Source: a virus. From it: a DNA stretch of 26,159 nt. The notes beneath the pieces are model-generated. The model was not told the DNA's origin and did not search any database. It worked only from the letters and a program-made list of their open reading frames with translations. How positions within the stretch are numbered: position 1 is the first letter of the stretch; the number at the start of each line of letters is the position of its first letter. This document shows, in pieces, positions 1 to 26,159 of the stretch. Location: positions 1 through 26,159 of IMG/VR virus record IMGVR_UViG_3300021964_000444. The stretch is one strand, 5' to 3'. Position numbers and translations under genes: made by a program.

Positions 1-1198
1 CCCCTGCCAAGTCAATCGTATTACCTGACAAGTAAATATCACGCCATCTTCTGTTTGGTGATCCTAAATCATAAGTTAATGTAGTTAATGGTTCTAAATT
101 TGAAATAAATCTTGCTGTGACATTGATTGTATCTTCTGTTGAATCTCCAGTATTAACACCAATAACTGTGTCACCTTTTAATGTAGTGTCATTTGAAACT
201 TCTAGTGTTGAACCAGCAACATAAACATTTTGAAAATAACCATTTCTAAAATTCTTAGCTGATGAACCAATATCTCTACTATTATTTGTATCAGGTATAA
301 TATTTTGATCTACTGCTGATAGGTCACTAGCAACTTCACCAAAGTCATATTGTTTTGTTGACGCATTGTATTTTAAAGCATAACCATCTGCTTGACCTGA
401 AATATCCACATCGTCCATGTTAGATATTTTGGTACTACCACCACCACCTAGAGATTGTAATTGTAAAGTTGTTAGTTGTTTAAATCTACTAAACTCTTGC
501 GTTAGTTTATCTAAATTAGTATCGCCTGATACAATATTCTCTTTGATTGACTGTGCGTGTTTAGTTAATTCTTTTACAACATTATCTTTGTTTGAAATCT
601 CTGGACTAGCAGTATCAGCAATTCTATCTTGTTGTAAACTTCTTATAGGTGTTGTTTCAGTATTGATAACTTGTCTAACATTGTTTATTAAATCTTCAGA
701 TACTAGACTTGTTGTAGATTTTGATTTAATAAATTTAGTAAAGTCATTTTCAGTAATATTAGTTTTAACAATTTCTTCTGTTTGATATTTGTTAACAGCA
801 TTTGTTAAATCTTTTAGTGTATTTAATAGGTTGTCTTCATCAATAGTAGTTTTAGTTTTATCTTTAACAACTTTATCAAATTTAGGTAAATCAAATAATG
901 CTTTAAGTTTTTCTTGTTTTTGTTGTTCTGATAGTATTGCTACTTCTAGTGATTTTTTCTCTTTCACTAATTCTTGTAGTTGATTATCTTGTTCTCTACT
1001 TACAGCTAATTCTAATTTTTTCTTTTCTGCCAAGAGAGTTATATATTCTGAATCTTGTTGAGCTTTTACTTCTTCTTGTAATCTATTTTTTTCTTTGATT
1101 AACTCTAATATCTCATTATCTTGTTCTTCAGATTTGATAGTTTTTAAAACATCTTTGCCTGCTAGTTGATTAAAAAATTTCTCTAAATCTTTTGACAT
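1..1198 (-). CDS. Tail-fibre-like structural protein with long N-terminal coiled coil (partial, 3' end outside window)
   Basis: The open frame starts at the ATG 1198-1196 and stays open to the window edge, giving about 399 residues with no stop. Residues 20-100 are highly charged with a 22-residue periodicity (QD at 26, 48 and 70, QQ at 92; Leu at 40, 62 and 84), which predicts a long coiled coil. A helical region, a GGGG hinge near residue 250 and then a beta-rich part follow. The last part (LGSPNRRWRDIYLSGNTIDL) matches a motif common in phage tail fibres of marine myoviruses. The start overlaps the stop of the upstream gene as TAATG, so translation is probably coupled. A trimeric fibre or fibre-connector role is inferred; the receptor-binding end, if any, lies outside the window. 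Confidence 0.8.
   Translation of the reverse strand, partial: MSKDLEKFFNQLAGKDVLKTIKSEEQDNEILELIKEKNRLQEEVKAQQDSEYITLLAEKKKLELAVSREQDNQLQELVKEKKSLEVAILSEQQKQEKLKALFDLPKFDKVVKDKTKTTIDEDNLLNTLKDLTNAVNKYQTEEIVKTNITENDFTKFIKSKSTTSLVSEDLINNVRQVINTETTPIRSLQQDRIADTASPEISNKDNVVKELTKHAQSIKENIVSGDTNLDKLTQEFSRFKQLTTLQLQSLGGGGSTKISNMDDVDISGQADGYALKYNASTKQYDFGEVASDLSAVDQNIIPDTNNSRDIGSSAKNFRNGYFQNVYVAGSTLEVSNDTTLKGDTVIGVNTGDSTEDTINVTARFISNLEPLTTLTYDLGSPNRRWRDIYLSGNTIDLAG
922..1126 (-). repeat. 22-residue (66-base) coiled-coil repeat, three copies and a fragment
   Basis: In the partial fibre gene, residues 25-93 repeat with a strict 22-residue step: EQDNEILELIKEKNRLQEEV, QDSEYITLLAEKKKLELAVS, EQDNQLQELVKEKKSLEVAI, then EQQ. 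QD recurs at 26, 48 and 70 (QQ at 92) and Leu at 40, 62 and 84. A 22-residue step equals two 11-residue hendecads rather than three heptads. Confidence 0.65.
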
Positions 1199-1548
1199 TA
1201 GAATTTTGTCACCTCTGGATTGACAGTAATAATACCACTATGTACTTTCTCAATAGTAGAGTCTGCCAATATTAATTCTACATCATATACATAACGACCT
1301 GCGTCTATCGCAGCAGTTATTGTATCTGTAAGTGCTAATTTGTAAGTACCAGCAGTACCTGAAACTATTGTACAAGTAAATGTGGCAGTTCTTGTAGATG
1401 AAGAATAACTTTTTCTCATTTGAGCTTGTATAGTTAAACCACTAATATCGTATGCTGTAGATCCATCGGTTGTGATTGTTAGTGTTCTACTAAAATCTGC
1501 TCCTTGATCTATTACAAAATTATCTGCTGTTTTTTGTGTGACTGCCAT
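1198..1548 (-). CDS. Small virion structural protein (marine T4-like phage type)
   Basis: This 116-residue all-beta protein has an N-terminal DQGADFSRTLT segment, a central QAQMRKSYSSST stretch and a C-terminal AGRYVYDVEL ... SGIITVNPEVT pattern. I recognise this layout from small structural proteins of cyanophages and pelagiphages that lie next to fibre genes. Its biochemical role is not known to me; a fibre or baseplate accessory protein is an inference from position. The start is preceded by a GAGAGAA ribosome-binding stretch and a late-promoter-like GATAAATA about 18 bases upstream. Its stop overlaps the next ATG (TAATG), tying it to the coiled-coil fibre gene. Confidence 0.75.
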   Translation of the reverse strand: MAVTQKTADNFVIDQGADFSRTLTITTDGSTAYDISGLTIQAQMRKSYSSSTRTATFTCTIVSGTAGTYKLALTDTITAAIDAGRYVYDVELILADSTIEKVHSGIITVNPEVTKF

Positions 1549-1566
1549 GTTCTCTCTCGTTTGTTA

Positions 1567-1574
1567 TATTTATC
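1567..1574 (-). promoter_or_regulatory. Late-promoter-like -10 element (GATAAATA)
   Basis: It has one mismatch to the T4 late consensus TATAAATA. It lies 18 bases before the ATG at 1548, leaving room for a short leader with a GAGAGAA Shine-Dalgarno. It also sits just past the end of the oxygenase cassette, so it would restart transcription for the last two structural genes. Confidence 0.5.
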
Positions 1575-1581
1575 TATTTTT

Positions 1582-2193
1582 TTATCTTAATTTAAGGGAA
1601 TATTCTAACTTTCCTAGATCACCACGAACAAAACAGTTGAAAGCTAAAGAGTATCTACGGTTGTTTGTAATATTCTCTGTGACAGAATGTTGTAAACCAG
1701 AAGGAAATATTAAAATATCACCAGGTTTTACTTTAAAAGCCACCACTTCACTATTTACAAAGTTTTTATCTGTGTAGTCTAATTTTATAACATCAGGTAT
1801 AACAGATTTATGAAAATGATTATGAAATTTAATGTCGCCAGAATCCTCAGGAATATCTATATAATATACACCACTAATAAGTGAATTAGCATGAAAGTGC
1901 ATACCTGACCAATCTTTTTTATTATGTCTTACCATCCAAGAGTTAGTAAAATAAAATTCTGCTTTCTTATCTACTCTTAACCAATCTCTTACAAAATTAT
2001 TTACATGATCTTGTATATCATTTTTCAAATCCATAGAATCTAAAATATATCTATCTTTAGATATATCACCATTATCAGTTTCCATTCTTTCGTACTCGCA
2101 AGTTTTACTAAACTCTAACCATTTGTCTTGTAATTCAATCCTAGACTGATACACAGGTGTTGGCCATAAGTTATGTTGAGTATAGTCTATCAT
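1582..2193 (-). CDS. Putative 2OG-Fe(II) oxygenase, TIGR02466-like (fourth in cassette)
   Basis: The 203 residues match the phage/marine 2OG-Fe(II) oxygenase family TIGR02466. They include an N-terminal NLWPTPVYQSRI, then MHFHANSLISGVYYIDIPE (residues 98-116), and PGDILIFPSGLQHSV with a distal iron-ligand candidate His169. An Arg pair at 179-180 before YSLAFN would bind the 2OG carboxylate. The proximal iron motif reads HFH (99, 101) rather than the textbook HxD. Enzymes of this fold couple 2OG decarboxylation to hydroxylation of a protein or small molecule; the substrate cannot be read from sequence. The start overlaps the previous gene by four bases (ATGA), so it belongs to the same translational unit. 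Confidence 0.85.
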   Translation of the reverse strand: MIDYTQHNLWPTPVYQSRIELQDKWLEFSKTCEYERMETDNGDISKDRYILDSMDLKNDIQDHVNNFVRDWLRVDKKAEFYFTNSWMVRHNKKDWSGMHFHANSLISGVYYIDIPEDSGDIKFHNHFHKSVIPDVIKLDYTDKNFVNSEVVAFKVKPGDILIFPSGLQHSVTENITNNRRYSLAFNCFVRGDLGKLEYSLKLR

Positions 2194-2858
2194 CTTGTAG
2201 GTTGTCCATAATAGAAATGAGTTATAGTAAATTTACCATCACTTCCACTATCAGGTTGTTTAAATTTTATTGGAGTTGATTTGTGTAAAAACATTGATGG
2301 AAACAAAACTGCTCTATTGTGTTTTAGTTTAATTTTTGTATTTGATTCTTCAAACTCTAAATCGCCACCTTCAAATGATTTTGGTTCTTTTACAAACCAA
2401 ATTAAATTTGTCCAATGATAAGAGTCATAATGAGAATTATAAAAATCTTCATTGTTATAATATGATACAAAAGAAGTCATAGCGTTTGATGAAAAAAATG
2501 ACCTACCATAATGACCACAATCATTTATTTTATGATGTAATTCTAATATCTTTTGTTTGTATGTACAAAATAATATATTTGATTGATCTCTACTTTCATC
2601 TCTATAAAGTTTATCTAGGTAATATCTATTATGTTTTCCTTTAGGTTTATCTTCAGCATCTTTAGCCACTATACCATCTTGCGCTGTTTCAATAGGATTA
2701 CTTGCATAATATTCTAATTCTTTCCAAACACCCTTTTCTTCTTCAGGTGTATACCAGTTGTCTACCAGAACAAATGGAAACATTGGATTATCTTTTATTG
2801 TTCTTATTTTCCAAGCTTGTTTTAAATCTCGTCTATCTTCAAAATCAACACTAATCAT
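2190..2858 (-). CDS. Putative 2OG-Fe(II) oxygenase, prolyl-4-hydroxylase-like (third in cassette)
   Basis: This 222-residue protein has a double-stranded beta-helix oxygenase signature. It shows NSHYDSYHWTNLIWFV with HxD at His143/Asp145, then GGDLEFEES, VLFPSMFLHKSTPIKF with distal His192, and a basic residue (Lys209) in the FTITHFYYGQP strand as a likely 2OG anchor. The N-terminal half (FPFVLVDNWYTPEE) resembles the entry segment of P4H-type phage oxygenases. It overlaps both neighbours (8 bases at its start, 4 at its stop), so all members of this part of the cassette are likely co-translated. It is not a close duplicate of the other three oxygenases. The substrate is unknown. Confidence 0.82.
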   Translation of the reverse strand: MISVDFEDRRDLKQAWKIRTIKDNPMFPFVLVDNWYTPEEEKGVWKELEYYASNPIETAQDGIVAKDAEDKPKGKHNRYYLDKLYRDESRDQSNILFCTYKQKILELHHKINDCGHYGRSFFSSNAMTSFVSYYNNEDFYNSHYDSYHWTNLIWFVKEPKSFEGGDLEFEESNTKIKLKHNRAVLFPSMFLHKSTPIKFKQPDSGSDGKFTITHFYYGQPTR

Positions 2859-3588
2859 AAACTATTTGATCTTTGTCTTTATCTTCTTTTTCTTCTAATG
2901 TATATTTTTTCTTTATACTAAAAATATCTTTTGGTAATCCTATGAATGGTCTTTTATCATAAGTAATATTATTCTTACCATCTTTCTCATTGTAATGTAA
3001 AAAGACTTGTGCGTGATTATTTCCTAACAAAGGCTCTCGCCAATGTTCTACTTCACAACCTTTATATATTATCATATCGCCTGGATTTAAATAAACAGGT
3101 ATACCTGTATCACCTATCTCACCATTTTTAGGACCTATAAACATAGGCCAATTCCAATTCTTATCTTTTAAATTTTCTGTATCATATCCCAAACACAGTG
3201 TAGTTGAAATTTCGCAACTAGGTCTATCTTTATGTCTAGTTAATTCTGTTCCCTTTGTGTAAAGTCTATGATAAGAATAAGTAGGAATTAATTTTAAACC
3301 AGAACCTTCTTCTACTTTTGCTGTAATTAAAGTCATTAATGTATCAAAAAACAAATCACCATATCTACTAAAATCACCTGGCGCTTGTTTATCATTAAAT
3401 GTACCCCATTGCTCCTCATCATAATTACCATAACCTAAATTTTCATCTAATAAATTTAATCTAGTGACTGCAAACTTAATATAGTTATAGCAAAAGAATG
3501 CCATATCTTTATCAATTACTTTTTGTATTTTTACCCAACCATTATCATTAAAGAATTGAGCTGCTGGACTTATATTTTTTGTATTCAT
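2851..3588 (-). CDS. Putative 2OG-Fe(II) oxygenase, cyanophage type (second in cassette)
   Basis: The 245 residues contain TRHKDRPSCEISTTLCLGYD with HxD at His119/Asp121, and PGDMIIYKGCEVEHWREPL with distal His182, followed by AQVFLHYNEKDG. This GDMxxYKGxEVEHWREP pattern is one I associate with 2OG-Fe(II) oxygenases of marine T4-like phages. The usual Arg or Lys about 10 residues past the distal His is not obvious (GNNHAQVF), so the co-substrate pocket may be built differently. The C-terminus is a lysine/glutamate-rich tail. The start is three bases after the previous stop with no clear Shine-Dalgarno, which suggests coupling. The substrate is unknown. Confidence 0.82.
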   Translation of the reverse strand: MNTKNISPAAQFFNDNGWVKIQKVIDKDMAFFCYNYIKFAVTRLNLLDENLGYGNYDEEQWGTFNDKQAPGDFSRYGDLFFDTLMTLITAKVEEGSGLKLIPTYSYHRLYTKGTELTRHKDRPSCEISTTLCLGYDTENLKDKNWNWPMFIGPKNGEIGDTGIPVYLNPGDMIIYKGCEVEHWREPLLGNNHAQVFLHYNEKDGKNNITYDKRPFIGLPKDIFSIKKKYTLEEKEDKDKDQIVYD

Positions 3589-3591
3589 AAT

Positions 3592-4344
3592 TTATCTAAA
3601 TGGTTTACCACATATCCATAATACTAATGAATATCTAGTACCTCTTGTTATAGGTGTGACTTGATGATATGTATAAGACGGAAAAAATATTATAGAACCT
3701 TGTGGTCTTATTTCTTCACATTCGTGGAATCTATCTCCACCTGAGTGAGGACCAAAATCAAATTTTAAATTACCACCATCATAAGCTCCTGGCTCATTTA
3801 GGTTAAGTGTCATAGATATTTTTCTAACTTTACCAATTAGATGTTCATTTTGACTGTATTGACAACCTTCTTCTTTTTTTGTCACTCCAGGTATAAATCT
3901 TTTGTATGCTCTATTATGACACCCACCACCATCGGTATGCCAACCATAAAATTGTTTTACTCCATATTTTGTAAATTGTATATCTTCACCAAAGTCAATA
4001 TCATACTTCCAACCAGAATTATTATTTGCTATTTTTAAAAAAGGCCATATTAAATCATAGATCCATTGATCGTTAAAAAAACAAGTTTCACTATCTCTTA
4101 CATAAGAGTGTTTTTCAGTATCTACAATACCCTCTTTTTTAAGTTGTTCGTGTGTTTTATCGTTTAATGGCTGTACTTCTTTAGTAAAATCTTGTTTGGC
4201 ATTTTTACCAAGTGTGGTAGCAGCTGTAGGTATACCTTGTTCTTTATTTTTTTTAAATATAGATTCACCATAATCAATAATGTCTTTACATTGTTTAGGC
4301 GATAAGGCACTTTTAAAAAAGTAATATGAATTACTAGGTTGCAT
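3592..4344 (-). CDS. Putative PKHD/P4H-type 2OG-Fe(II) oxygenase (first in cassette)
   Basis: This 250-residue protein has the full canonical triad. GWHTDGGG carries HxD at His136/Asp138, FFPSYTYHQVTPITRGTRYSL carries distal His227, and Arg237 lies ten residues later as the 2OG anchor. KISMTLNLNEPGAYDGGNLKF lies between and is typical of PKHD-type hydroxylases. The N-terminal SALSPKQCKDIIDYGE helix is also typical, supporting this ATG. A perfect TATAAATA ends nine bases before the ATG with no Shine-Dalgarno, so the messenger from that promoter would be nearly leaderless. It is the most canonical of the four oxygenases. The substrate is unknown; modification of a virion or host protein is possible. 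Confidence 0.87.
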   Translation of the reverse strand: MQPSNSYYFFKSALSPKQCKDIIDYGESIFKKNKEQGIPTAATTLGKNAKQDFTKEVQPLNDKTHEQLKKEGIVDTEKHSYVRDSETCFFNDQWIYDLIWPFLKIANNNSGWKYDIDFGEDIQFTKYGVKQFYGWHTDGGGCHNRAYKRFIPGVTKKEEGCQYSQNEHLIGKVRKISMTLNLNEPGAYDGGNLKFDFGPHSGGDRFHECEEIRPQGSIIFFPSYTYHQVTPITRGTRYSLVLWICGKPFR

Positions 4345-4353
4345 AATATAGAT

Positions 4354-7533: not shown

Positions 7534-7752
7534 TTACTTATTTATCCCTTTAATCAATTCTTTGATTTCTCTTAACTCTGTCTTTAGATTATTTATCTCT
7601 TTTACAGCACTTCTTATTTCATCACCACTTTTCTCTCTCGCTCTTGCTCTTGCCATATACAAAGAATATTCTGAAGTATTAGTATTAATAATACCATTTG
7701 TCTTAATATCTCTTACTAAATTTTCAAATCCTTGTACTCTTAATCTACTCAT
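7534..7752 (-). CDS. Small coiled-coil protein of marine T4-like phages
   Basis: This 72-residue basic protein contains LRVQGFENLVRDIKTNGIIN, then SEYSLYMARARAREKS, and a C-terminal heptad-like helix (VKEINNLKTELREIKELIKG). I recognise the SEYxxYMARARAREK style from small genes beside large structural proteins of cyanophages, with no assigned function. The ATG overlaps the stop of the DUF4815 gene as TAATG, so it is translated in fixed coupling with that giant. A chaperone or assembly partner of the upstream protein is a plausible inference. Confidence 0.72.
   Translation of the reverse strand: MSRLRVQGFENLVRDIKTNGIINTNTSEYSLYMARARAREKSGDEIRSAVKEINNLKTELREIKELIKGINK
7539..7546 (-). promoter_or_regulatory. 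Late-promoter-like element (GATAAATA) abutting a start codon
   Basis: It has one mismatch to TATAAATA and lies six bases before the ATG at 7532, partly over the end of the 72-residue gene. It is too close for a leader with a Shine-Dalgarno, so either a leaderless transcript or a chance match. Confidence 0.3.
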
Positions 7753-10700
7753 TATACTGCCAATGCTATTGCTCTAAAGTCTTTTAATCTTGCTGGTAAA
7801 GCTGATACTGTACCATTAAAAACTATTTTAATTTGGAAAGATGTAAATTCAGGTAATGTACTAGCGCTGAATTTGTAATCTTTGAAATCTAAATCTAATA
7901 CGACATCACCATTTGACGGATCAACAGTCAAATCAGAACTACCATCTGTATTAAATGGCGTAAATGGTATATCTTCAATTCTTCTTGTTTCTTCACCACC
8001 TGATAATCTAAAGAAACATTTAATTGATGAAGTTGATCTTACACTAGCCGCTAATCTTACATCTAACGCTGTTGAAGCATTTGCCAAATTAATTGGTTTA
8101 GTAATGTAAGCGCCAGCTGAAGAACCGCCCTCTACTGCTGTGTCATCTTCATAATCAACCGTGTTTGTTAATTTTGCTATCACTTTTGATCCACTCGCTG
8201 GAGCAGTATCTAAAGTTAGAGTTGTACCTGAAACTGTAAAGTCATCAATAGGTTGTAATTTTTTTCCATCTTTTTTAACAGATAATATGTGAACACTACT
8301 TGGTGTTCCACTTATTGTGAATGCTGTCGTAGAGCCATCACCTGTCAATGTGCTTGTAGATGATACTGTAGGATTATTTAATCTATTTGAAATCGCAAAA
8401 GCATTAATTCTTTTTAAATCAATTGCTGGTGATAAGTTAGCATTTGTTGAACTCAACACTAAATTTATAATTAAAGATTTAGATCCTGACATTTCATTTG
8501 TTTGGTTAATGTCACTTGCTACTAATCTTGGATTACCAAAGTAATAGTTATCTCCTAATACAATATTTTCTGTGTCTGCCGTAGATTGTAAACTAAATGC
8601 TGTTTCTGAACCATGTACAGATTTACCACTTGTTGTTCTCATTGTACTTGATAAAGATGTATCAGGGTGTACTACTGAACCAATTTGTGGTTGTAATACA
8701 TCAAATAATCTATTTTGTGTAGCTGTCACAGCTGAACCACCAACATCGCCTGTTGCGTTTGCTGTTCCACCTGTTGTAATATCATAACTATCTAAAGTTA
8801 TATTTGAAATACTTGTATATGTTCCGTTAATCGCAGAGTGTGCGATACCATTATATGTACCTGCCGCAACTCCAGCGATTGTGACATTATCTGTTGTAGA
8901 ATGCATACCGTGGTTTTTATGGAATATTCTTATAAGACCAGTGCCGTTAAATGTTCTAATAGGATTAGTGTCTAAAGTTTTTACAGGTAAAGATGCATTT
9001 GCTAATGAAAGTGTGCCTGAAGCTGATATATCAAATACTGCTTTCTTCAAAGTAAACTTCATGTCTTCCATTTGTTCAGGTGACCAAGTACGATAGTTAG
9101 CAGATTTAAATAACACACCATTTGATGGTTGTTTAGATACTGTTCTATCTGAATCTAATGCTTTCTCACCTAGTCTAGCAATATAAGCAGTATAATCAGT
9201 TGAGTCTGAATACAATACTATACAATACTCAATACCCTCTTGTAAATAAACAGGACTATCAAAAGTAAATGTAGTTGCTGTTGATCCATCTGTACTTGTA
9301 TTTACTGAACTTGGATTTAAATATTTTTGTGCGAACGGTATAACTTTTTGTCCAGGATAACCATTGACCATATTTCTTATTTCTGCTCTTACTGGAATAG
9401 TAGATGATTTAGTAGCAAAATAAGCGTCTAAACTTGTTATGTATATTCCATCTTCTTCATCAATCATAAATGATTGAGCCAATGGATCACCACCTCGTCT
9501 ACCAATTACTCTACTTGCTGTTCTTGTAGTTGATGAAGTTGCTGTCACAGTTTGTCTAACTGTTCTTGCTTCTCTTGTTGAAACAATCGCCTCTTGTGTT
9601 GTTTCTAATAAACCTTTAGCGTCATAATCAGCTTCTGCTGATGTAGCAACATTTGTTCTATCTTGGACGTTTGTAGATGAAGCTGTTAATCTGAATACTC
9701 TTTTACCTGTTCGCCATTTAGGATTAGATGAATTATTTGGATCAGGTATAGCAAATGTACCTTTTACATAACCATTAGCATCTGTCACTACATTACCACC
9801 TAACGATCCACCATCTGGAGTAATATATGCAGAAACTGCTATGTTATCAAAAAAACCAAAAACTTTAGTGTTAGGTCTCATTCCATAAGCTTGAAATTCC
9901 ACTGTTCTGCTTCTTATGAAAGGAATAAAGTTTACTGACATAACTCTAGCACCTAAACTTTGTCTTACTGATTGAGGCACTATTGTTGTTCTAATACCAG
10001 CTCTTGTTTGTACAACATCTGTACTAGTTGATTGTACTAAAGAATTTCCTTGCCATCTAGTATTTGTTCTTGGATTACCTGACCATTGATCTTGCCATTC
10101 ATTCCATTCAGTTCCTACAGGTATTTCTGTTGTATTTGTATTATCTAATCCAGCATTAATAGCTAAATTATCAAATGTTCCATTTACATTTACAACTAAT
10201 TCAGGAGCAACTCTAGTTTCTTTCCATTCATCAACTGGAGGATCTAAAGTAATATCTCCTATCCAATCAAATACTAGGAAAGGATTTAAATTTTCTGTTT
10301 TAGTTGCATATGGTTGTTCTAAATAAGTTGCTTCTGTGTATGGTAAAGTCACCAAGTCACCTGTCTTAGCGTAATTAGCTACTGTTCTATCTGCTGCTAA
10401 TATAGCAGTTAAATCATCATCAACTTCCTCTAATTCTACAATATCTTCATTGAAAGGTGTTCTTGCCTCACCTCTTGCTCTATCTATTGAAAGTTTGTAA
10501 TCATTATTTCTAACATCACCAACATTGTGACCTGAAAAATTATCTACAACAAAACCATTTTTAAATCTATCTAAACCATCTTCATCTTGTATTTGTAGTG
10601 ATTGTGCATCAGCTTCTAATAAAGATAACTGAGTATAGTATTCTACATTTTTAATTCTATTTTCTAATGAGCCAATATCTCTCATTGTGTATCTACTATT

Positions 10701-13700
10701 ATCTTCTTTATCTACAATAACATCAGAAGTTTTTAAAGTATAACTTGGTATTGTTAGTGTTGCTAATAATAAATGACCATCTAAATTACCTGGCTCTAAA
10801 GGACTAATAGCACTAGCACCTTTTAATACTTTTATTTCGCCTTGTCTTGTAATAAAGATTTTATCTATTCTATTTAAATAAAACTCAAAGTCTGTTGTTA
10901 TATCTGAATTGAATTGTGGTATGTCAATAGTTGAAGCACCTGTACCATCAAAACTTCTATCTGAAGTACCTGAATTAATAGTTGAAGCATCATCTACTCT
11001 AGGTCTGAAATCTAAACTATCTCTTAATTCTACTTTATTACCAGTTGTATCTGAAGTATAACTTGGAATATCTTCATAATCAATTACACCTGCATAAGAA
11101 TCTACATCAAAATAATCACCTGATCCATGTGAAAAGAAATCAAAATTAACTAATAGTTGACCAGTTGGTTTTAATGCACCTGGTTTTAATTTTAATCTTC
11201 CTATGTCGTAATAGTTATCTCTTTGACCATTGTCTAAATCAAAACGACTTGTAATATCTGTATCTGAAATTGTAGCAGCGGCACCAAAACCACTTGACAT
11301 ATAAACATTATTGATTTTATATACATCTGCTTTTGATAGACCAATTACGCCACTTTCAATAATTGATTGTGATGATATGTTAATAGTTGAAGCACTATTT
11401 AAAGTTTTTGTTTTTGAACCAGCAACTGTTCTAACAACCGTTGCTAAAATTTTTACTTTATGACCAGCGAAGTCAGCACCAAAGTCTAGTGTTAATGTTT
11501 TACCTGTTGGAGACCCACCTAAAACAAATAATGCATCACCTTCATGGTTATTACCAGATAAATTTAATACATCACCAACTGCACCTGTTCCACCACCACC
11601 AGTTGTCATAATACTAACAGTAAAGTCATCACTTGCGTTTGAAGCAAAAGTTTCGTTTGTACCAGCTGTAATTGTGACATCACCGTTTGATGATAATGTA
11701 CCTGTAAAGTTTCTTCTTACATTAAAGTTTGTATCTGTTGCTCCACTATTAGCTGTAGTTTTTAAAGTCTTAATAGTAATATGTGGTAGATTAAATATTG
11801 AAGTATTGTTTTCAGGATTTGTAAGTTTTGATCTTTTCCTTGTTAACACTGAAGCTGTTGATACATCACTTCCACCAACATTTGCTGATAATTCTAATTC
11901 TGTTTGAGATACAATATACTTAACTATACCTGTCACATTACCACCAGCGTTATTCTTAAATTCAATTGTATCACCTATCTTTAAATCTGTTGTAAAGTTT
12001 GTACCTTTACCAAATACAGTTGCATCACTATTTGCTACTGTGACATTACCTGTAATTATAGTATTTGTTCCATAAGTAGATGTTGTATCTGCGTCAGCAG
12101 TATAAGTTGGCGAGCCTGCCATACCAATTTGTTTAATTGCAGTTATATCTCTTGTGCTAACTCCTTTTAATCCTAAAGTATCAGCTTGAATTGTTGCTGA
12201 TGCAGAAGAAGTAGCGCCTGTGATTACTTCACCAGCACTAAAAGTACCTTCTACATTAGATACTACACAAACTGTGTGAGAGGCTGTAGGATTACCTGAC
12301 TGTGCTGTGACATTTAATGATGTTGTACCATCACTATCAAATAATTCAAAAGTATTTGTTGTAGTGTTTCTAACAACACAAACTCTAGCGCCTGAGTTAA
12401 CCGTACTATCTACAGAATATGTTCCACCTGTTAAAGTAATTTGTTGACCATCTCTAAATCCATGTGAAGATAAAGTTGCGACAGATGGATTGGCAGCAGT
12501 AATAGCTATCGCTGCTGATTTAGTAGCAGTGACACTTTGTACAATACCTTTTGCGCCTGAAGTTGCACCTGATACTACTTCACCATTTGTAAATGAAACA
12601 GATGTTAATAAGTTTAAATGAGTAAACATTTCTATATCAAATAGATAATGTCTATAAATTGAAGATGTTGCGTTTATATCGCTTGTTTCAGTTGCTGATA
12701 CATTTTCAAAACCACGAGATTTAGCACGACCAATTTGTGGTACAGTTGTACCTACTGTTGATTGTTGCGTTCCTCTAGCTGATGTTGCAGTATCAAATAA
12801 GTTAACTGTTTTAAATGCTTCTACATCACCAGAAACAAATCCTATATCGGGTTGACCATAAACATTGTTTACAGAAATAAAGTTTTTTATATTAAATCTT
12901 GTTTTGTGATTATTTGCTGTTTCAAAATCTCTTGCCTTATCAACATCAACAAAAGTTGTTCCAATTCTTTCAGATTCATAACCTTTTACATAAGCTTTAA
13001 ATGGTGATACCCCAAGAGCTAATTTACTAGCCAATCCACCATTACCTGAAGTATAGATACCTCTATTATTACCAGAAGATAAATGTTCTCTTACATCAAA
13101 GTCAGGATTAGATAAAACATAATCTCCTGATTCGTCAAATGTTCTACGAGCAAGTGTATCTTCTAATACAGCATATTCTGTATTTCTTACAATACTTTTT
13201 ATAGTACCATTTTCAACTCTAGCGATTTCATAAAAATTTTCATCTTCAGTTGAAGACAATGTTTTTTTAGCAAGTGTTAGTAATATTTTAAATCTGTGTG
13301 CGCCTGGAGCATTAGTATTTGATGAGCCAGCTGCGTTATCATTCAAACTATTATCATCATTAGGAGTCACAAAACTTTCTGTGACTGAAAAACCTATTCT
13401 ATATGATGGTGTGTTTGTATATTTGTCTAATATTAAAGTTGATGTATCTATTTGAACAAAGAAACCATTGATATAATATACACCTGATTGAATTTTTGCG
13501 GCAGAACCTGTATGAGTAGTTGCTACAACTGCTGATAATGAAACACTATCACTATTTGTTCCTGTAATTGTTTCGCCATCTGAGAATACAAAACTTGTAT
13601 TGTTTGTTCCTGTCTTATTATATTTTACATATAAAGTATTAGGGTCAGTTCCGTCTGTTGCATCTGTTCCAGTAATCTCTGCGATTACACCTGAAGTACC

Positions 13701-14008: not shown

Positions 14009-15469
14009 CTAAAATTCAATTATTAATTTAACATTCTCGGTTTGATCGGCCGCTCTTGTAATAGGTGCTCTATTTTCTACATAAAGAACATCACCTGTAT
14101 CAGCATCTAACTCACCAGCATTATAACCACTAGTGAATACAACACTATCAACTGTTGTTGAAGAAGTTGATGGAGTTGAAGTGACACTAGAACTTTGACC
14201 TGTAATTACATTTGCACCTGAAAACGCTGTTAAATTAGCATTCGCATCTACACCAGCATCATTAAATCTTGTTTGTATATAATAAAGAATATTATTTGAA
14301 CTATCCCATTCTACAACTTTACCGACTGCGCCAGTAGTTGCTTGATTAATTTCTTCATCTACAGTATAATCACCTGATGGACCTGTCACTAATACAGCTT
14401 TTGTAGCTCTTACAGTAGCTGCTGTAGCGGCAGAACCGCCTGACTTAGGATCTCTCATTAGTGCAACTCGTCTAAAATCATTTGCTGTTGTAAAGTCACC
14501 AGAGTTTGCTGCTTCACTAGCTTCAAAGTTAGTGTTTAACATTACATAATGTCCACCTAATTCTATAACTGCGTTTTTACCGTGTCCACCTTTTGGCTCA
14601 ATAATAACATCTAATTCAGTACCTGATAAACTTGTTGCACCAGCTGCTACTATATCAGCAAGTCTTATATAAGCAAATGTATATCCTGTACCTGGTGTTG
14701 TCACTGTGACTGCTGTCACTGCGCCACCTGCTACTGTCACAGATGCCACACCACTTGATCCGTCACCTCTGATTGCAACGCCTGTGTGTGTTCCATTAGT
14801 ACCGCCAGAACCAGCTGTTTTAATTTTAACTACATTTACAGCACCATCTACTGCTGCGGCAGCAACTGTAGCATCTGTTGCGACTGCCATGAAATCTGTT
14901 GATAAAAAGTTTGCTGCTTGAGCCGCTGATAGTGAATACATATATTTCCATTTGTATCCATCTCCAGTTGATAAAATAGATGTAGATGTTCCAGTAGGTT
15001 CTACTGTTGAAGTAGCATTACCATTGTTATCTAAACATTTGTAAACATGATTTGCGCTTGATAGTACATAAAAAGTAGCGTCAAATAAAGTAGTCGCACC
15101 ACTATTTGCTGCTTGTATTGAAGTACCACCTGTTATTCTATTTCCATAATCGTGTCTATAATAATCATAGACTGTACCTGTTGCCCAATTTCTTCTTGGT
15201 ACAACAAATGAAATATCTGAACTAGTAATTTTCTTAGCAGCCAACATATCGTCAAAATAAAAGAACTCATCTTGTATAGAATCAACTGGTGTTAAAGGAG
15301 TTGTATCAGTTCCTTCATTAGTTGTTCTTAAATCACCTCTTGTTAAAGTAGCAAAAGGTTGAGGTCTTCCTATACCCATGTAATACACATTTGCTCCAGA
15401 TTCAGTAAAAGATTCTGAAAACTGTTCTGCGTTATGTATTCTAAATTTATTTGTTATTATTGCTGGCAT
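14009..15469 (-). CDS. Baseplate wedge protein, gp8-like (marine type)
   Basis: This 486-residue protein begins PAIITNKFRIHNAEQFSESF, then GANVYYMGIGRPQPF and DDMLAAKKITSSDISFVVPR RNW. This N-terminal pattern is that of the gp8-type baseplate wedge protein of marine T4-like phages. YDYYRHDYGNRI, FYVLSSANHVYKCLDNN and GYKWKYMYSLSAAQAANFL follow and are conserved blocks of the same family as I know it. The C-terminal half has beta modules with TTGAVGKVVEWDSS and ends NVKLIIEF. An AAGGAA Shine-Dalgarno and an exact TATAAATA precede it, and it is followed 11 bases later by the DUF4815 giant. In T4, gp8 sits in the wedge with gp7, gp10, gp6, gp53 and gp25. Confidence 0.8.
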   Translation of the reverse strand: MPAIITNKFRIHNAEQFSESFTESGANVYYMGIGRPQPFATLTRGDLRTTNEGTDTTPLTPVDSIQDEFFYFDDMLAAKKITSSDISFVVPRRNWATGTVYDYYRHDYGNRITGGTSIQAANSGATTLFDATFYVLSSANHVYKCLDNNGNATSTVEPTGTSTSILSTGDGYKWKYMYSLSAAQAANFLSTDFMAVATDATVAAAAVDGAVNVVKIKTAGSGGTNGTHTGVAIRGDGSSGVASVTVAGGAVTAVTVTTPGTGYTFAYIRLADIVAAGATSLSGTELDVIIEPKGGHGKNAVIELGGHYVMLNTNFEASEAANSGDFTTANDFRRVALMRDPKSGGSAATAATVRATKAVLVTGPSGDYTVDEEINQATTGAVGKVVEWDSSNNILYYIQTRFNDAGVDANANLTAFSGANVITGQSSSVTSTPSTSSTTVDSVVFTSGYNAGELDADTGDVLYVENRAPITRAADQTENVKLIIEF

Positions 15470-19517: not shown

Positions 19518-22094
19518 TTAAACTGCATCAAAGGTAATGCTTGTATTATCAAATGAAGCTCTATCTTCATCAAAACTGTCGTTAGATATATGGAATATTT
19601 CAGATGGTAAGGCAAATTCAGTTTTTTGTTTATGTTCAAAATCGCCTAATATAGTTAACTCGCCATCTATACTTGTATTTTTTGTACCCATCAATCTTAA
19701 ATCATTTAATTGTCCTATTTGTATTCTACTAGCATAATGTGTGTTCAATATTAAACTAGATAAAGACTTTAAATTAGGACCAGCTACAGCTCTACCAAAT
19801 CTAGTTGTATTATTTCTAATAGCACTTTTTTCTTTCATAGTCATGTTGAAACTCATTAGTCTAGTTAAAGTTAAATCTCTTGTACTAGGTGTAAAGTGAT
19901 CACTTGTACTATCTGTAAAATCAGGATCAATACCTAAATGTGAGTTTGCTCTTAAACTAGTACCATCATCAGTTGTACCTAATCTTCTACCAAATATTGT
20001 AGAGAAAAGAGTATTGATAACTAGAGCAATATCTTCATATTCTATACCAGAATTAATACCTACAATACTTTGTATTTGAGCATTTACTTGGGATTGAATA
20101 TCTACTTGACCTGTAAAATAAAAACCAGATGTATGCATTGTCTTTTTAAAACTATCTCTCCAGTCATTAATAGTACGACCAACTTTGATTACATAAGAAA
20201 AATCTTGGTAATATAAACTATCTTGTATTTTCATTGAAGTTTCTGAACTCCAACCATCTTGGTTTATAAAAGTACCAGCAGTATCTACAACAGAACCTAC
20301 TGTGACTGTTGCTGTTGCTAAATCATTTTTTTCTACTGTAGCAGTTGCACCACCACTAGAAGTTATAGGTGTATTTTCAGCAAAGACACCTGTTGGACTA
20401 GAAACTTTTAATATACCTGTACTTGATGTATAAGATACAATAGTTGCTGTTATTACAGATGAAGCACTGTTAACACCTGTAATTGTATGGCCAGTTAAAA
20501 AACTACCTGTCACACCTGATACAATTAAATAACTTGGTAATGCTAATGTAGGTGGAGAGGGTGACGCTTCATAACCTGCGCCAGACTCAATAATTTTTAA
20601 TCCTAGTATTCTACCTATCTCTGTACCATGAGCATAAATAACTGCGCCTGAGCCAGTTGTAGTAGCAGCAGCTACCACTGGTAAAGATTGATAGTTATTA
20701 CCATTTGATATTATTCTTATATCTGTAATATCACCTGAACCAGATCCACTTTCTTGTACAATTTTATTTCCTGTGTATGGATCGCCTCTTGTAGTTTCAT
20801 CTTCTAGTACAATGTGACTTGTAGAAGAACCACCAACAGTTCCATTTTCTGTTGTGATACCACCATTAACAACTGAAACTTTTGCTTTGGCAGAACCACC
20901 ACCTGTATCTGTATTTGTAAAATTTATATCATCACCAATTTCATAAGCACTACCACCTGTAGCTATTACAAAATCTGTTATACCTCCACGACCAACAGCA
21001 TCAACTTGAAGAATAGCACCTTGTCCTCCACCAGTAGTGACTATTGAATCATTTTCAGCATATAAATTACCATCATTCGTAATACTAATTACACTAGGTA
21101 TACCTGTGATTGTTGCTTTGATGTAAGTATCAGATGTATCTGAATCTGTACCTCTAATAGTTTCACCAATAGTAAAAGTACCAACTATTGTATCATCATT
21201 TAAAATAAATTCTGTGACAATATTTGATCCTATTTGAAACTTAAATATATTTTCTACTGTGGCAGTTGCGCCAGAAGTTTCACCTTCTATTGAACGACCA
21301 ATTAATTTAGATGTATCACCTATTGTACTAATTGCTCTTAATATTTTACTCGTACTCCAACTACCATCTGATGCTCTTAAAAGATTTTCTCTAGGATAAA
21401 CTGTTTCTGATTGTAATCCAAATAATAATTTAAAAAATAACTCATGTCCACGATTAGTACCTTTTGCTTTGTATACAGATTTAATATTTTTAATTAACTT
21501 TCTTTTATCTATACCACTTGCTAAAGTTTCAGGTAATGTATTTAAAAACTCATTTCTAAATTTTGTTAAGAAGTTAGATATTGCTTTATCAGGATCACGG
21601 AAGTTTAATAAGTCTTGTATATTATTAACTGGGTTTGGTTTGTAATTATTAATTATTGCTTGAGCTTCAGATGTGGCACCTGTTATAGTTTCACCATTTA
21701 TAAATTTATCTTGTGCTGATATAAAAATTCTATTGTTATCTAAATCTTCAGCAAGAACTGTTGTTGTTGCGTTTGAAGTAGAACCTGTGATTATTTCACC
21801 TCTTGTAAATTTACCATAAGTAGAACTTTCTAAAAGAATTTTATCACCAGCATCTAATTGTGTTCTATCTGTATCTAAACGAGAACCATCTAATACTAAT
21901 TCATTATTTTGATTTGTTTCTGTTTCTAATTTGATACCGTCAGTAGATTGTACTGAAGTCACACCTAACTCTGCTGACTCCATAAAAGTATAGTATGATT
22001 TTATGAACTCTAAAAATTTAGGGTGTTGTTCTAATACGAACTCAGGAACCTGTTGATTTATCAGGTTAGATATTTTGTCTGTGAACTTTGCCAT
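19518..22094 (-). CDS. Large baseplate wedge-type structural protein (gp7 position)
   Basis: This 858-residue protein begins KISNLINQQVPEFVLEQHPK, then FLEFIKSYYTFMES (residues 7-40), a start I know from large structural proteins that follow gp6 in marine T4-like phages. LIKNIKSVYKAKGTNRGHEL, then FFKLLFG (200-226), is a second conserved block. Between and after these are at least five G-E-x-I-x-G-x-T/D-S type beta motifs (near 99, 135, 268 and later). SYVIKVGRTINDWRDSFKKT is a third conserved-looking block near the C-terminus. The ATG overlaps the gp6 stop as TAATG. By gene order it may take the place of T4 gp7, but I cannot show homology to gp7 from the sequence alone. Confidence 0.78.
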   Translation of the reverse strand: MAKFTDKISNLINQQVPEFVLEQHPKFLEFIKSYYTFMESAELGVTSVQSTDGIKLETETNQNNELVLDGSRLDTDRTQLDAGDKILLESSTYGKFTRGEIITGSTSNATTTVLAEDLDNNRIFISAQDKFINGETITGATSEAQAIINNYKPNPVNNIQDLLNFRDPDKAISNFLTKFRNEFLNTLPETLASGIDKRKLIKNIKSVYKAKGTNRGHELFFKLLFGLQSETVYPRENLLRASDGSWSTSKILRAISTIGDTSKLIGRSIEGETSGATATVENIFKFQIGSNIVTEFILNDDTIVGTFTIGETIRGTDSDTSDTYIKATITGIPSVISITNDGNLYAENDSIVTTGGGQGAILQVDAVGRGGITDFVIATGGSAYEIGDDINFTNTDTGGGSAKAKVSVVNGGITTENGTVGGSSTSHIVLEDETTRGDPYTGNKIVQESGSGSGDITDIRIISNGNNYQSLPVVAAATTTGSGAVIYAHGTEIGRILGLKIIESGAGYEASPSPPTLALPSYLIVSGVTGSFLTGHTITGVNSASSVITATIVSYTSSTGILKVSSPTGVFAENTPITSSGGATATVEKNDLATATVTVGSVVDTAGTFINQDGWSSETSMKIQDSLYYQDFSYVIKVGRTINDWRDSFKKTMHTSGFYFTGQVDIQSQVNAQIQSIVGINSGIEYEDIALVINTLFSTIFGRRLGTTDDGTSLRANSHLGIDPDFTDSTSDHFTPSTRDLTLTRLMSFNMTMKEKSAIRNNTTRFGRAVAGPNLKSLSSLILNTHYASRIQIGQLNDLRLMGTKNTSIDGELTILGDFEHKQKTEFALPSEIFHISNDSFDEDRASFDNTSITFDAV

Positions 22095-23947
22095 TAGTAG
22101 TTAGATGTTGTTGTATAACCTACGCCAGCATCAGCAGAGCCACCAACAAAGGTATCTGCCTCTACTGTGATTGTTGCATTTGCTGTATCTATTTCTAAAA
22201 TTTGATCTCTTACAGGAACTATGTCAGATGAAGCTGGTTCAACAGTTATTTCAATATTTGAAGATGAAGCACCTCTAATATTTTCTACTGACGCAACTGT
22301 TAATGAATTAATTGTAATTTGACCAGTTGTATAATTAACTGTACCTTGTGTGCTATTAACATATGTTCTAACTGAACCTACTAAATAATATCTTCTTATA
22401 TTACCTTGACCATCATCATCTAGGTAATAGACATTAGTATCATTAGGAACTTTAAAACCTGTAGAACTAACTACACCACCAGCTGATGCATTATGACCAG
22501 AGTGAGGATTGTGAATAGCATTTCTAAAATATATATCGTATTTTGTTGACAAACTTAAACTTGGTACTAAATCTTTTCTAATTTTTAGTGTTGTTATGTT
22601 TGATAAAATAGATGTATCTGTAGCATCAATTAAACCTGTAATTTTTGAGTGTCTAAAAACACCATCAAATTTACTTAATGTATTAGAATTATAATCTGTT
22701 AATGTTGTTAAAACTTCTGATTTAATTGTGTCACTAGTTTTTGTAGTTGCTCTTTCATCATACTTAACATTTGTTGTTAGTAATAATTTTGTAATTTCTG
22801 GATCAACAATTTCTGGTCTAACAGAGGCAACATTGTATTTTCTTAATTGAGCTACAATACTATCTTTTGTAGCTTCTGTAAGTGTAGAACCTGATGCTGC
22901 TTTAATCGCAATCTTTACTACACCATAAATTGGAGTTTCATCATCTTCACCACCCCAAGCTGATACTGATTGAGCATTAGGATATAATTCTTGTACTAGT
23001 GTTTCATAATCAGAAGTAGTCACTGCTCTATCTTGTCTAGCATATTGTAATGGTGCGTTAAATTTAATAGAATCTTTTGTTTGTGCATCTGCTCCACCTT
23101 GAGCATTTGAAACTGTTGTAATAGTGACATCTGTAAATCCACCAATACTACCTGATAGTGTAAATGCACTTGCGCCATTTGCTTCATCTTTATTAGAAAC
23201 AATATATTCTAATATAACAATATTACCATCATCTAATTTTTTACCTATAATACCATCTCCAAAATAAACTTCAAACTTACCATCTTCACCCTCTTGTAAG
23301 AAATAAACTTTTGAAGTTGTATCTAAAGAAGTAAAACCTGTAGCTTTTGTATATGTGTTTGTTGTAGTATCTGATACTGAATTTTGTATTTGTACTTTTA
23401 AAGTAGATGTATCAGCGTTGACACTCGGAATAATAAATCTTTGGTCTGGGTCAGATGTGTTTGCTGTATATTTAAATGTGACTAATGTTCCTTCATAAAC
23501 ACTAATATTTGAAAATTTGTAAATACCATCTATTGGTGACATTGTATGTGCTGAGTCTGTGACAAATTGATAAGTTGTTCCATCAACTGTTGTATTGAAA
23601 GAAGTACCTTTAGCCATTGTGACTGCTGCACCAGTTGCATTGTTTAATAAAATATCAATAATTGCCGTAGGAGCTTTTGGTGATGTTGGTGTATAACCTA
23701 ACATCTTTGCTATTGACACAATATTTTTTCTTATGTCAGCGCTATCTAAATACATTTCATTTGCTAACATATTAGCATTGAAACCTAAGTAGTGAGTATT
23801 GTAAGCAAGAACATCTAATAGAACAGCAAAACCAGATCCTTCAAAATTATAGTCTTGGAACTCTGATTGATTTTGTAAAAAGGTTTTTAGATTACTTTTA
23901 ATATTATCAAAATCTAATTCTGAAACTTCTAATTTATTACTTGCCAT
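22094..23947 (-). CDS. gp6: Baseplate wedge protein gp6 (J-like)
   Basis: The 617 residues carry the T4 gp6 signature at the N-terminus: LEVSELDFDNIKSNLKTFLQ, then FQDYNFEGSGFAVLLDVLAY and NTHYLGFNANMLANEMYLDS, then the DIRKNIVSIAKMLGYTP block (residues 6-92). The centre contains EVYFGDGIIGKKLDDGNIV and YETLVQELYPNAQSVSAWGG, which are typical of gp6/baseplate J-like proteins. T4 gp6 is 660 residues, so length agrees. gp6 dimers join the six wedges into the inner baseplate ring around the hub. It starts one base after the gp25 stop, in the usual order PAAR-25-6. Confidence 0.95.
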   Translation of the reverse strand: MASNKLEVSELDFDNIKSNLKTFLQNQSEFQDYNFEGSGFAVLLDVLAYNTHYLGFNANMLANEMYLDSADIRKNIVSIAKMLGYTPTSPKAPTAIIDILLNNATGAAVTMAKGTSFNTTVDGTTYQFVTDSAHTMSPIDGIYKFSNISVYEGTLVTFKYTANTSDPDQRFIIPSVNADTSTLKVQIQNSVSDTTTNTYTKATGFTSLDTTSKVYFLQEGEDGKFEVYFGDGIIGKKLDDGNIVILEYIVSNKDEANGASAFTLSGSIGGFTDVTITTVSNAQGGADAQTKDSIKFNAPLQYARQDRAVTTSDYETLVQELYPNAQSVSAWGGEDDETPIYGVVKIAIKAASGSTLTEATKDSIVAQLRKYNVASVRPEIVDPEITKLLLTTNVKYDERATTKTSDTIKSEVLTTLTDYNSNTLSKFDGVFRHSKITGLIDATDTSILSNITTLKIRKDLVPSLSLSTKYDIYFRNAIHNPHSGHNASAGGVVSSTGFKVPNDTNVYYLDDDGQGNIRRYYLVGSVRTYVNSTQGTVNYTTGQITINSLTVASVENIRGASSSNIEITVEPASSDIVPVRDQILEIDTANATITVEADTFVGGSADAGVGYTTTSNY

Positions 23948-23948
23948 T

Positions 23949-24377
23949 TTATCTTAATCTTTCTAAAAATGTTTCAACTGTGACTGGTTGTGCTACACCT
24001 ATTACATAAAAACTAATTGATACTTGGTATCTGTTTCTATCTAAATCAGGTCTTGCTATAATTTGTACTAATTTAATTCTTGGTTCAAAGTTAGCTAATA
24101 CTTCTTCAATCTTTCTTTGTAAGTTTAGAGCTGTTAATGGTGTCACTGGTTCAAATAACAATGCTCTTACATTACCACCAATCTCTGGGTGGAATGGTCT
24201 TTCAAAGTGATTAGTCTGAATTAAATTTCTTACACTTCTTTTAACTGCCTCTGCGTCAGTCAATTTATTTACATCATTAGTGACTATATTTCTACCAAAG
24301 TCTAAATCCAAGTCTTTGTATATACGACTTGCTCTTTTACTTTTGTTTGATACATTTTCTACACTATAACTAGGCAT
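23949..24377 (-). CDS. gp25: Baseplate wedge protein gp25 (sheath initiator)
   Basis: At 142 residues it is close to T4 gp25 (132). SRIYKDLDLDFGRNIVTNDV opens the fold. AVKRSVRNLIQTNHFERPFH and EIGGNVRALLFEP follow, and EEVLANFEPR contains the conserved E-P-R core (98-100). FLERLR ends the protein. In T4 and related contractile systems gp25 links the wedge to the tail sheath and templates sheath polymerisation. An exact TATAAATA lies just five bases before the ATG and no Shine-Dalgarno is visible, so translation is either from a nearly leaderless message or continues from the PAAR transcript 15 bases upstream. Confidence 0.95.
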   Translation of the reverse strand: MPSYSVENVSNKSKRASRIYKDLDLDFGRNIVTNDVNKLTDAEAVKRSVRNLIQTNHFERPFHPEIGGNVRALLFEPVTPLTALNLQRKIEEVLANFEPRIKLVQIIARPDLDRNRYQVSISFYVIGVAQPVTVETFLERLR

Positions 24378-24382
24378 ACCAA

Positions 24383-24390
24383 TATTTATA
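24383..24390 (-). promoter_or_regulatory. Late promoter -10 element (TATAAATA) abutting the gp25 start
   Basis: It is an exact T4-late-type match in the 15-base gap between PAAR and gp25, with only five bases to the ATG at 24377. If used, the transcript would start at or within a base or two of the AUG. Confidence 0.42.
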
Positions 24391-24392
24391 CA

Positions 24393-25086: not shown

Positions 25087-25092
25087 TGTTTT

Positions 25093-25251
25093 TTATGCTC
25101 CATTAAATAAATCTTCATTATTTGTTTGTTTTTTTTCTTCTTTTTCGCAACGACAGTGTTTGCAACAAAGAGTTTCGCCACCTGTATCATATTTTTGCCA
25201 ACAATACTGATTGCAGTGGCATTTATGTCCGCAATTTTGACAAAATATCAT
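25093..25251 (-). CDS. Cys/His-rich micro-protein, putative zinc binder (52 aa)
   Basis: The frame runs from ATG 25251-25249 to TAA 25095-25093. It is dense in metal-ligand residues: CQNCGHKCHCNQYC (Cys4, Cys7, His9, Cys11, His12, Cys13, Cys17) and LCCKHCRC (Cys29, Cys30, His32, Cys33, Cys35), then an acidic/Lys tail. This suggests two small zinc knuckles. It lies in step with the surrounding minus-strand genes, six bases before the next start. A CATAAATA motif seven bases before the ATG is the only nearby signal; no Shine-Dalgarno is seen. Function is unknown; regulatory or nucleic-acid binding is inference. Confidence 0.68.
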   Translation of the reverse strand: MIFCQNCGHKCHCNQYCWQKYDTGGETLCCKHCRCEKEEKKQTNNEDLFNGA

Positions 25252-25258
25252 ATGATTC

Positions 25259-25266
25259 TATTTATG
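25259..25266 (-). promoter_or_regulatory. Late-promoter-like element (CATAAATA)
   Basis: It has one mismatch to TATAAATA and lies between the stop of the lipoprotein-like gene and the ATG of the Cys-rich gene, seven bases before that ATG. It is one of four such motifs that abut a start codon. Confidence 0.3.
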
Positions 25267-25470
25267 TTAATATTTACAACGCACATTTGCGTGTTTTAGA
25301 TTCGTTTCTGTCAAATTTTCTTTATTTTCTAACGCCGAATCGCCAATTTTCTCTAAATCTGGCCTAATTTTACACGATTTTACGATACAAGAACAAAGGG
25401 TGAACAAAAAAAGTAAAAAAGTTAAGTAAATCAACCCTTTTTTAACCAATTTATTTGCTATTTTTACCAT
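25267..25470 (-). CDS. Small putative lipoprotein / membrane-anchored protein
   Basis: This 67-residue protein has a basic start (MVKIANKLVKK), a hydrophobic run GLIYLTFLLFLFTL (12-25) and then CSC. Leu25-Cys26-Ser27-Cys28 is a possible lipobox with lipidation at Cys28, although Cys at the -2 position is unusual. The remaining 39 residues are hydrophilic. Small lipoproteins of this size include phage outer spanins, but no partner is visible, so that is speculation. It is the first leftward gene after the strand switch, with GATAAATA 17 bases upstream and a weak AGAAA ribosome-binding stretch. The frame is AT-rich, so some chance of a spurious ORF remains. Confidence 0.5.
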   Translation of the reverse strand: MVKIANKLVKKGLIYLTFLLFLFTLCSCIVKSCKIRPDLEKIGDSALENKENLTETNLKHANVRCKY

Positions 25471-25514
25471 TTTTTTCTGTACTAATCTATTTATCCTGAT
25501 ATATTAGCTAGTAT
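25471..25514. promoter_or_regulatory. Divergent intergenic region between leftward late genes and rightward small genes
   Basis: These 44 bases separate the two directions of transcription. They hold a late-type motif for the leftward side. For the rightward side I see AT-rich sequence but no convincing -35/-10 pair, so the promoter of the rightward genes is not identified. Confidence 0.4.
25488..25495 (-). promoter_or_regulatory. Late-promoter-like -10 element (GATAAATA) at the strand switch
   Basis: It has one mismatch to the T4 late consensus and lies 17 bases before the ATG at 25470. It is the most upstream late-type motif of the leftward gene block, so it could start the transcript that enters the PAAR-gp25-gp6 genes. 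Confidence 0.45.
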
Positions 25515-25706
25515 ATGATAAACAAAAACATAAAAACAAATAATATGACGATAGTTAGAAATATCGCATATAAACAAATAGAAAAAATGAAGACTAATAT
25601 AAAAGATACTATTGAAGTTGACAATACTCTTTTAAATTTAATTGATATTAATATGAAAAACGCTATTAATAGTATCATTTACAATTATAAACTAAACAAC
25701 AAATAA
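25515..25706 (+). CDS. Hypothetical protein (63 aa)
   Basis: This is a small, Asn/Lys/Ile-rich, probably helical protein: VRNIAYKQIEKMKTNIKDTI, then EVDNTLLNLIDINMKNAINS. No domain is recognised. No good Shine-Dalgarno lies before the ATG at 25515; an in-frame ATG at 25545 (before TIVRNIAYKQ) is an alternative start, equally without a clear site. It is followed by 14 bases with AAAGGAG leading into the next gene. Being first of the rightward block it may be an early or middle gene, but that is inference from direction. Confidence 0.55.
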   Translation: MINKNIKTNNMTIVRNIAYKQIEKMKTNIKDTIEVDNTLLNLIDINMKNAINSIIYNYKLNNK

Positions 25707-25720
25707 AAGGAGAAACCACT

Positions 25721-25978
25721 ATGATTAAAGAAATGAACACTTTTAACAATAAATTATTTTCAATGTCTATTGAAGATTTAAATATCACTAAAGACTTAAT
25801 CGCTGATATTATTAAGAATAAAGTTAAGTCTGTAATGAAAGTCGGTATGAAAGTTAATGTAGTACAAAAGACTAAAAAGACACCTGGTGTTATTACAAAA
25901 ATTATGCAATCAAAATGTTTGGTTGACTTAAATGGTAGAATTTACAGAGTACCAATGTCAATGTTGGAGGTTGCGTAA
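25721..25978 (+). CDS. Small protein with SH3/KOW-like C-terminal half (85 aa)
   Basis: The start has a textbook AAAAGGAG ribosome-binding site. The N-terminal half is helical (MSIEDLNITKDLIADIIKNK). The C-terminal half reads VGMKVNVVQKTKKTPGVITK, then IMQSKCLVDLNGRIYRVPMS MLEVA. The G-x-x-V-x-V ... G-x-V-x-K-I ... V-D-x-x-G-R-x-Y-R-V-P pattern resembles small five-stranded SH3/KOW-type barrels seen in many short cyanophage proteins, which often bind nucleic acid or protein. I do not know a named family. The stop overlaps the next ATG as TAATG. Confidence 0.75.
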   Translation: MIKEMNTFNNKLFSMSIEDLNITKDLIADIIKNKVKSVMKVGMKVNVVQKTKKTPGVITKIMQSKCLVDLNGRIYRVPMSMLEVA

Positions 25979-26159
25979 TGACAATGTATAATATATCAGT
26001 AGAACAATATAATCAATTAAGAGAAAAGGAAGAAACTATGAAAAAACAAAAAAACAAAATGAAAAAAGTATATGAATATATGACAGTATTCTTCGCAGTA
26101 CTAGGTACCTTAGCTATGGTATCAGCAACTGGTGCGATAGAAACTGATCAATGGCTATT
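25978..26159 (+). CDS. Small membrane-anchored protein (partial, runs off right edge)
   Basis: The frame opens at ATG 25978 (TAATG overlap with the previous stop) and stays open to the window end, about 60 codons. The first part reads YNISVEQYNQLREKEETMKK. Then a basic stretch and one hydrophobic segment, EYMTVFFAVLGTLAMVSATG, precede AIETDQWL. This could be a membrane anchor or an uncleaved signal. An internal ATG at 26038 with AAAGGA eight bases upstream is a credible alternative or second start, which would give MKKQKNKMKKVYEYMT as the N-terminus. Function is unknown; the C-terminus lies outside the window. Confidence 0.65.
   Translation, partial: MTMYNISVEQYNQLREKEETMKKQKNKMKKVYEYMTVFFAVLGTLAMVSATGAIETDQWL

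Follow-up and report, generated by a model that had tools for sequence, protein, structure and literature searches.

Pelagimyophage-like DNA purged of the word GTWAC and a putative restriction endonuclease gene in GTWAC-free relatives

Introduction

Some viruses carry nucleases that attack host DNA and spare viral DNA. T4 endonuclease II and the restriction enzymes of the Chlorella viruses are of this kind; T4 is protected by its modified cytosine and the Chlorella viruses by methyltransferases. The arrangement typical of type II restriction–modification (R-M) systems is a nuclease gene beside a methyltransferase gene, and phages that avoid restriction sites lose short self-complementary words by mostly synonymous changes. 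The recognition words of two type II R-M systems overlap the word considered here, GTWAC (GTAAC or GTTAC): MaeIII reads GTNAC and Tsp45I reads GTSAC. Neither, however, cuts GTWAC while sparing GTSAC, and we know of no characterised enzyme for GTWAC.

Among the SAR11 bacteria, R-M was found in one of more than 100 genomes (PMC7029224) and in none of eight Pelagibacterales MAGs (PMC9516812). The phages of this group, whose hosts are said to lack R-M, are divided by the density of a short word, GANTC, much as the phages described below are divided by GTWAC; GANTC differs in being a known host methylation mark (PMC9516812). A literature search for GTWAC, as a methylation mark or otherwise, gave nothing relevant.

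Here we analyse a stretch of viral DNA, the window, which is a whole virus record of 26,159 bases. Its lack of GTWAC resembles phage restriction-site avoidance in kind, but differs in being complete (0 of about 48 sites) and nearly all-or-none between close relatives.

Results

The window (positions 1–26,159) is probably a fragment of a pelagimyophage-like phage of the T4 type. Its gp6-, gp25-, gp8- and VrlC-like baseplate genes are ordered as in the Pelagibacter phages Mosig and HTVC008M, and every gene named in this paragraph lies on the minus strand. The gp6-like baseplate wedge gene (22,094–23,947; 617 aa), whose product is 68% identical to that of Mosig and 56% identical to that of HTVC008M, was our marker for finding relatives. 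It adjoins the gene of an 858-aa structural protein (19,518–22,094), which is in synteny with Mosig_00105. Annotated relatives identify a gp25-like baseplate wedge protein (23,949–24,377; 142 aa) and a gp8-like baseplate protein (14,009–15,469; 486 aa). The longest gene (7752–13,997) encodes a VrlC-like structural protein of 2081 aa; it has an annotated syntenic homologue and was included in the codon-level test. Four adjoining small genes (1582–4344; 203, 222, 245 and 250 aa) resemble those of 2OG-Fe(II) oxygenases in annotated relatives, among which such genes are common. No nuclease or methyltransferase was apparent when the translations of the window genes were inspected.

Neither GTAAC nor GTTAC occurs in the window, which contains 35 copies of GTCAC and 37 of GTGAC. 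When pentamers were counted against a maximal-order Markov model, GTWAC was the most depleted of all (0 versus 47.6 expected, z = −6.9) and GTSAC, at a twofold excess, the most over-represented (72 versus 35.2 expected). The original prediction, that GTWAC is wholly missing while GTSAC is abundant, was thus borne out; its figure of about 65 GTSAC was too low, and its chance estimates were close. It had also held that the depletion would be undone if shuffled codons reproduced it, and they did not. In 500 shuffles of synonymous codons in the window genes, which preserved proteins and codon usage, GTWAC occurred 58.3 ± 4.4 times with a minimum of 44, and GTSAC occurred 26.0 ± 4.5 times with a maximum of 43, compared with 69 observed in coding sequence. 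As no shuffle had fewer than 44 copies of GTWAC, its absence is not a product of codon usage or chance. Relatives with similar proteins have normal numbers of the word, which also argues against such a cause, and we give it practically no weight.

GTWAC is not the sole depleted word in the window. CGCG (0 observed/12.3 expected), TCGA (1/22.1) and ACGT (1/25.1) are also scarce.

Among the first 80 related contigs, which had 73–84% gp6 identity, six contained zero GTWAC and nearly all others had about the expected number, apart from a few partly low ones (L052 and L053, for example). When pooled, the GTWAC-free contigs contained 0 sites versus 209 expected, and the others contained 2400 versus 2010. 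Numbers in the cultured phages were 302 versus 297 expected (Mosig) and 410 versus 377 (HTVC008M). Related contigs are therefore bimodal: a minority has either no site or a single conserved site in gene 23, and most are normal. On the gp6 tree, the loss of GTWAC took at least two changes, and the absence of the word is restricted to particular lineages. More GTWAC-free or GTWAC-poor contigs came from scans that used gp20, gp22 or a methyltransferase, and these cover gp17–gp23, UvsW, gp46/47, DNA polymerase, gp41 and other genes. Thus, the loss extends beyond the baseplate genes. Scans with NrdA and gp32 found no GTWAC-free contigs, and a gp6 scan started from another GTWAC-free contig found nothing new. 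One GTWAC-free group (G003, L023, L476, L477 and L486) differs in its other words, as CATG is missing and ACGT and TCGA are present.

Several further patterns were seen in these phages. In contig G316 (L463), all 10 GTWAC sites are central and both flanks are empty, with flank expectations of only 7.4 and 5.1; this contig may have arisen by recombination of a GTWAC-free phage with a normal one. Marine T4-like phages lose other palindromes (GATC, ACGT, TCGA and CATG) in an all-or-none manner, as seen in L118, L144, L179, L477, Mosig (L082–L084) and many others. Contig L179, which is T4-like and filed in the bacterial MAG Rickettsiales MED606, has no GATC, TCGA or ACGT in 15 kb and has normal GTWAC. 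CGCG is almost missing across the whole phage group. GGATG/CATCC occurs once in the window versus 23.7 expected, and is low among relatives too.

Codon choice in the GTWAC-free contigs follows the word. Valine before ACN was written GTA or GTT in 0 of 240 cases, compared with about 91% elsewhere in those contigs and in relatives, which agrees with the codon choice before threonine that had been predicted. After NGT, tyrosine was TAC in 0 of 102 cases and asparagine was AAC in 0 of 170. The excess of GTSAC was found only in frame 0 (6.33 versus 0.89 per 1000 codons), and there was none in frames 1 and 2. In frame 0 the central base is the sole silent position, so GTSAC is the sole silent escape from GTWAC. 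A plain W-to-S change would lift all frames. Restriction-site avoidance is recognised by silent escape in every reading frame, which was found here, and by a word far below the expectation that preserves proteins and codons, which was also found (0 versus 58.3 ± 4.4). These results show that the loss of GTWAC is selected at the DNA level. There is good support for avoidance of a restriction-type site, or of an activity that cuts GTWAC.

A single GTTAC survives in six GTWAC-poor contigs, in each case at one shared position close to the start of gene 23; contig L402 has GTGAC in its place. Thus, the avoidance, though very strong, has exceptions. The retained site sits in a segment with strong DNA conservation in the relatives examined. 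By eye, conservation of the gene 23 start segment AGACGNGCCGTTAC...ATCTTGGAAAACCAAGA seems to exceed what its codons require in pelagimyophages, and to some extent in cyanophages (L399:11277, L436:11278, L396:2909 and other loci). The same segment contains a CTTGG-AAAA-CCAAG inverted repeat.

An open reading frame of 253 aa, which we call orfR, lies downstream of the gp41 helicase gene in the GTWAC-free contigs L514 and G317/L535, and was confined to these among 80 methyltransferase loci. A scan of IMG/VR with orfR found nine carrier contigs, all nine of which had zero GTWAC (about 129 expected), and all 10 loci that span gp41 and its downstream gene but lack orfR had normal GTWAC. The Fisher p value for this association is 1e-5 if the contigs are taken as independent; they are not, so this value overstates the evidence. 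On the gp41 tree, orfR is a single gain (one change and one independent pair) and its carriers all fall on the same side of a single branch. An equal association with GTWAC loss would therefore be expected of every gene found in that clade alone. ACGT is missing from the carriers too, and TCGA almost so. However, these two words are lost without orfR in phages with normal GTWAC, namely Mosig (ACGT, 0/188) and HTVC008M (TCGA, 2/121), and thus GTWAC is the word that accompanies orfR. None of the contigs of the CATG-free group spans the orfR position.

orfR was found in other contigs of GTWAC-free relatives and not in the window, and no contig joins it to window genes. The window is linked to the carriers in two ways. 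They share a motif profile in which GTWAC, ACGT, TCGA and CGCG are missing or nearly so, and metagenomes 3300005913 and 3300009507 hold orfR contigs together with other GTWAC-free or GTWAC-poor contigs.

Searches of Pfam, NCBIfam, PADLOC and PDB sequences gave no credible nuclease-family match to orfR. Many restriction enzymes escape family and structure-sequence searches, so this result lowers, but does not exclude, the claim that orfR encodes a nuclease. Strong homologues were present in three of 297 genomes of the Ca. Pelagibacter TMED128 family (E values 5e-26, 3e-25 and 2e-14; identities 31, 36 and 25%). All three lie directly upstream of, and overlap, a DNA methyltransferase gene of the N6_N4_Mtase kind. 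As these homologues abut methyltransferases in the manner of type II R-M systems, orfR is most simply read as a putative restriction endonuclease relative. In a five-row alignment, residues D156 and K173 do not vary, a nuclease hint that is only suggestive.

Outside the TMED128 family, class-wide matches to orfR were weak, and the short loci fetched had no neighbour of the N6_N4_Mtase kind. Plasmids gave no match to orfR and named phages gave only weak, short ones. A homologue of the bacterial N6_N4 methyltransferase was not found in the GTWAC-free contigs fetched, which represent incomplete genomes; other methyltransferases (MT-A70 and C5-cytosine) are present in GTWAC-free contigs. In sampled stretches of the three operon-bearing bacterial genomes, GTWAC density was normal, with no depletion. 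Thus, bacterial DNA of this family would be a substrate for a GTWAC-cutting enzyme. Two of the bacterial R-M-like operons, L563 and L564, encode methyltransferases that are 98% identical and putative nucleases that are only 40% identical. We also looked for a Tsp45I-type enzyme (PF06300) in the 297 genomes of the TMED128 family, and no match exceeded the cut-off.

Discussion

Two explanations of the loss do without a restriction-type enzyme. In one, a modification or mutator, such as a methylated base, alters GTWAC without selection; in favour of this, G313, a contig poor in GTWAC, has a gene for a C5-cytosine methyltransferase. However, escape from GTWAC falls on the silent position of each frame and not on a fixed base, and relatives with normal GTWAC commonly have methyltransferases of this family. 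We rejected the G313 enzyme as the cause because it is found in many GTWAC-rich relatives, and conversion by mutation seems to us very improbable. Two related C5-cytosine methyltransferases (L461:8762–10048 and L514:1193–2353) lie in pelagimyophage replication regions, with and without GTWAC loss. In the other explanation, phages avoid a binding protein, a transcription signal or some other defence system that reads GTWAC. A self-complementary word that is wholly missing from both strands, in the coding sequence of many genes and in several lineages, would point more to a cleavage site than to a binding site. We consider avoidance of this second kind unlikely, if less so than mutation.

We propose instead that GTWAC was purged by selection and that the most likely agent is a phage-borne orphan type II-like endonuclease, orfR, although we put this reading somewhat short of an even chance. 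An enzyme that cuts GTWAC during infection would select a lineage to lose all of its sites. The most likely source of such an enzyme may be the phage itself. The orfR product, as such a restriction endonuclease, would attack the DNA of the host and of any co-infecting phage that still has GTWAC, and the phage's own genome would be spared because it has no such sites. The sequences show that orfR co-occurs with GTWAC absence and that its relatives in the host group sit in R-M-like operons. We infer that orfR may be a nuclease with GTWAC as its word, and that the phage of the window may carry it too.

Alternatively, the hosts may carry a GTWAC-specific restriction system, which would have favoured phages with fewer and fewer sites, down to zero; orfR would then be an incidental or captured host gene. 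Host restriction is the classical cause of site avoidance, and R-M-like operons with orfR-like genes do occur in three of the 297 TMED128-family genomes. The all-or-none loss of many other palindromes fits varied host enzymes, and single retained sites would be expected if each site has a limited cost. Against this, R-M is reportedly rare in SAR11, which matters if this phage infects that group, and erasing hundreds of sites per genome would seem to need constant exposure. That the three operon genomes show no GTWAC depletion also counts against it; this is a weak point, as the operons may read another word. We regard host restriction as a substantial possibility, but still a doubtful one. The original prediction had offered two causes, restriction by the host or a nuclease of the phage to which phage DNA is immune, and it is partly supported. 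That a restriction-type site is avoided has held up, and the nuclease branch has gained a candidate, orfR, in other contigs of GTWAC-free relatives. Of the two, we give a small lead to the orphan nuclease borne by the phage, since R-M is reported to be rare in SAR11 (PMC7029224, PMC9516812) and an R-M-related gene accompanies the loss of GTWAC.

The proposed orfR nuclease would resemble those of T4 and the Chlorella viruses in being virus-borne and directed against host DNA, but would differ in that protection comes from having no sites. Competing phage genomes hold hundreds of GTWAC sites. We tentatively suggest that an orphan restriction endonuclease from a family not yet described, related to R-M systems of the host group and with a new specificity for GTWAC, is present in some pelagimyophages. 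It would be a weapon against hosts and rival phages, and its carriers would be immune by site erasure; we hold this to be rather less likely than not. The host restriction alternative concerns bacteria that are thought to have almost no R-M. If the proposal is true, GTWAC would be a restriction specificity not previously known to us, and a virus would protect itself by erasing sites rather than by modification. It would also offer a direct test of whether the all-or-none loss of palindromes in marine T4-like phages reflects phage nucleases or host restriction.
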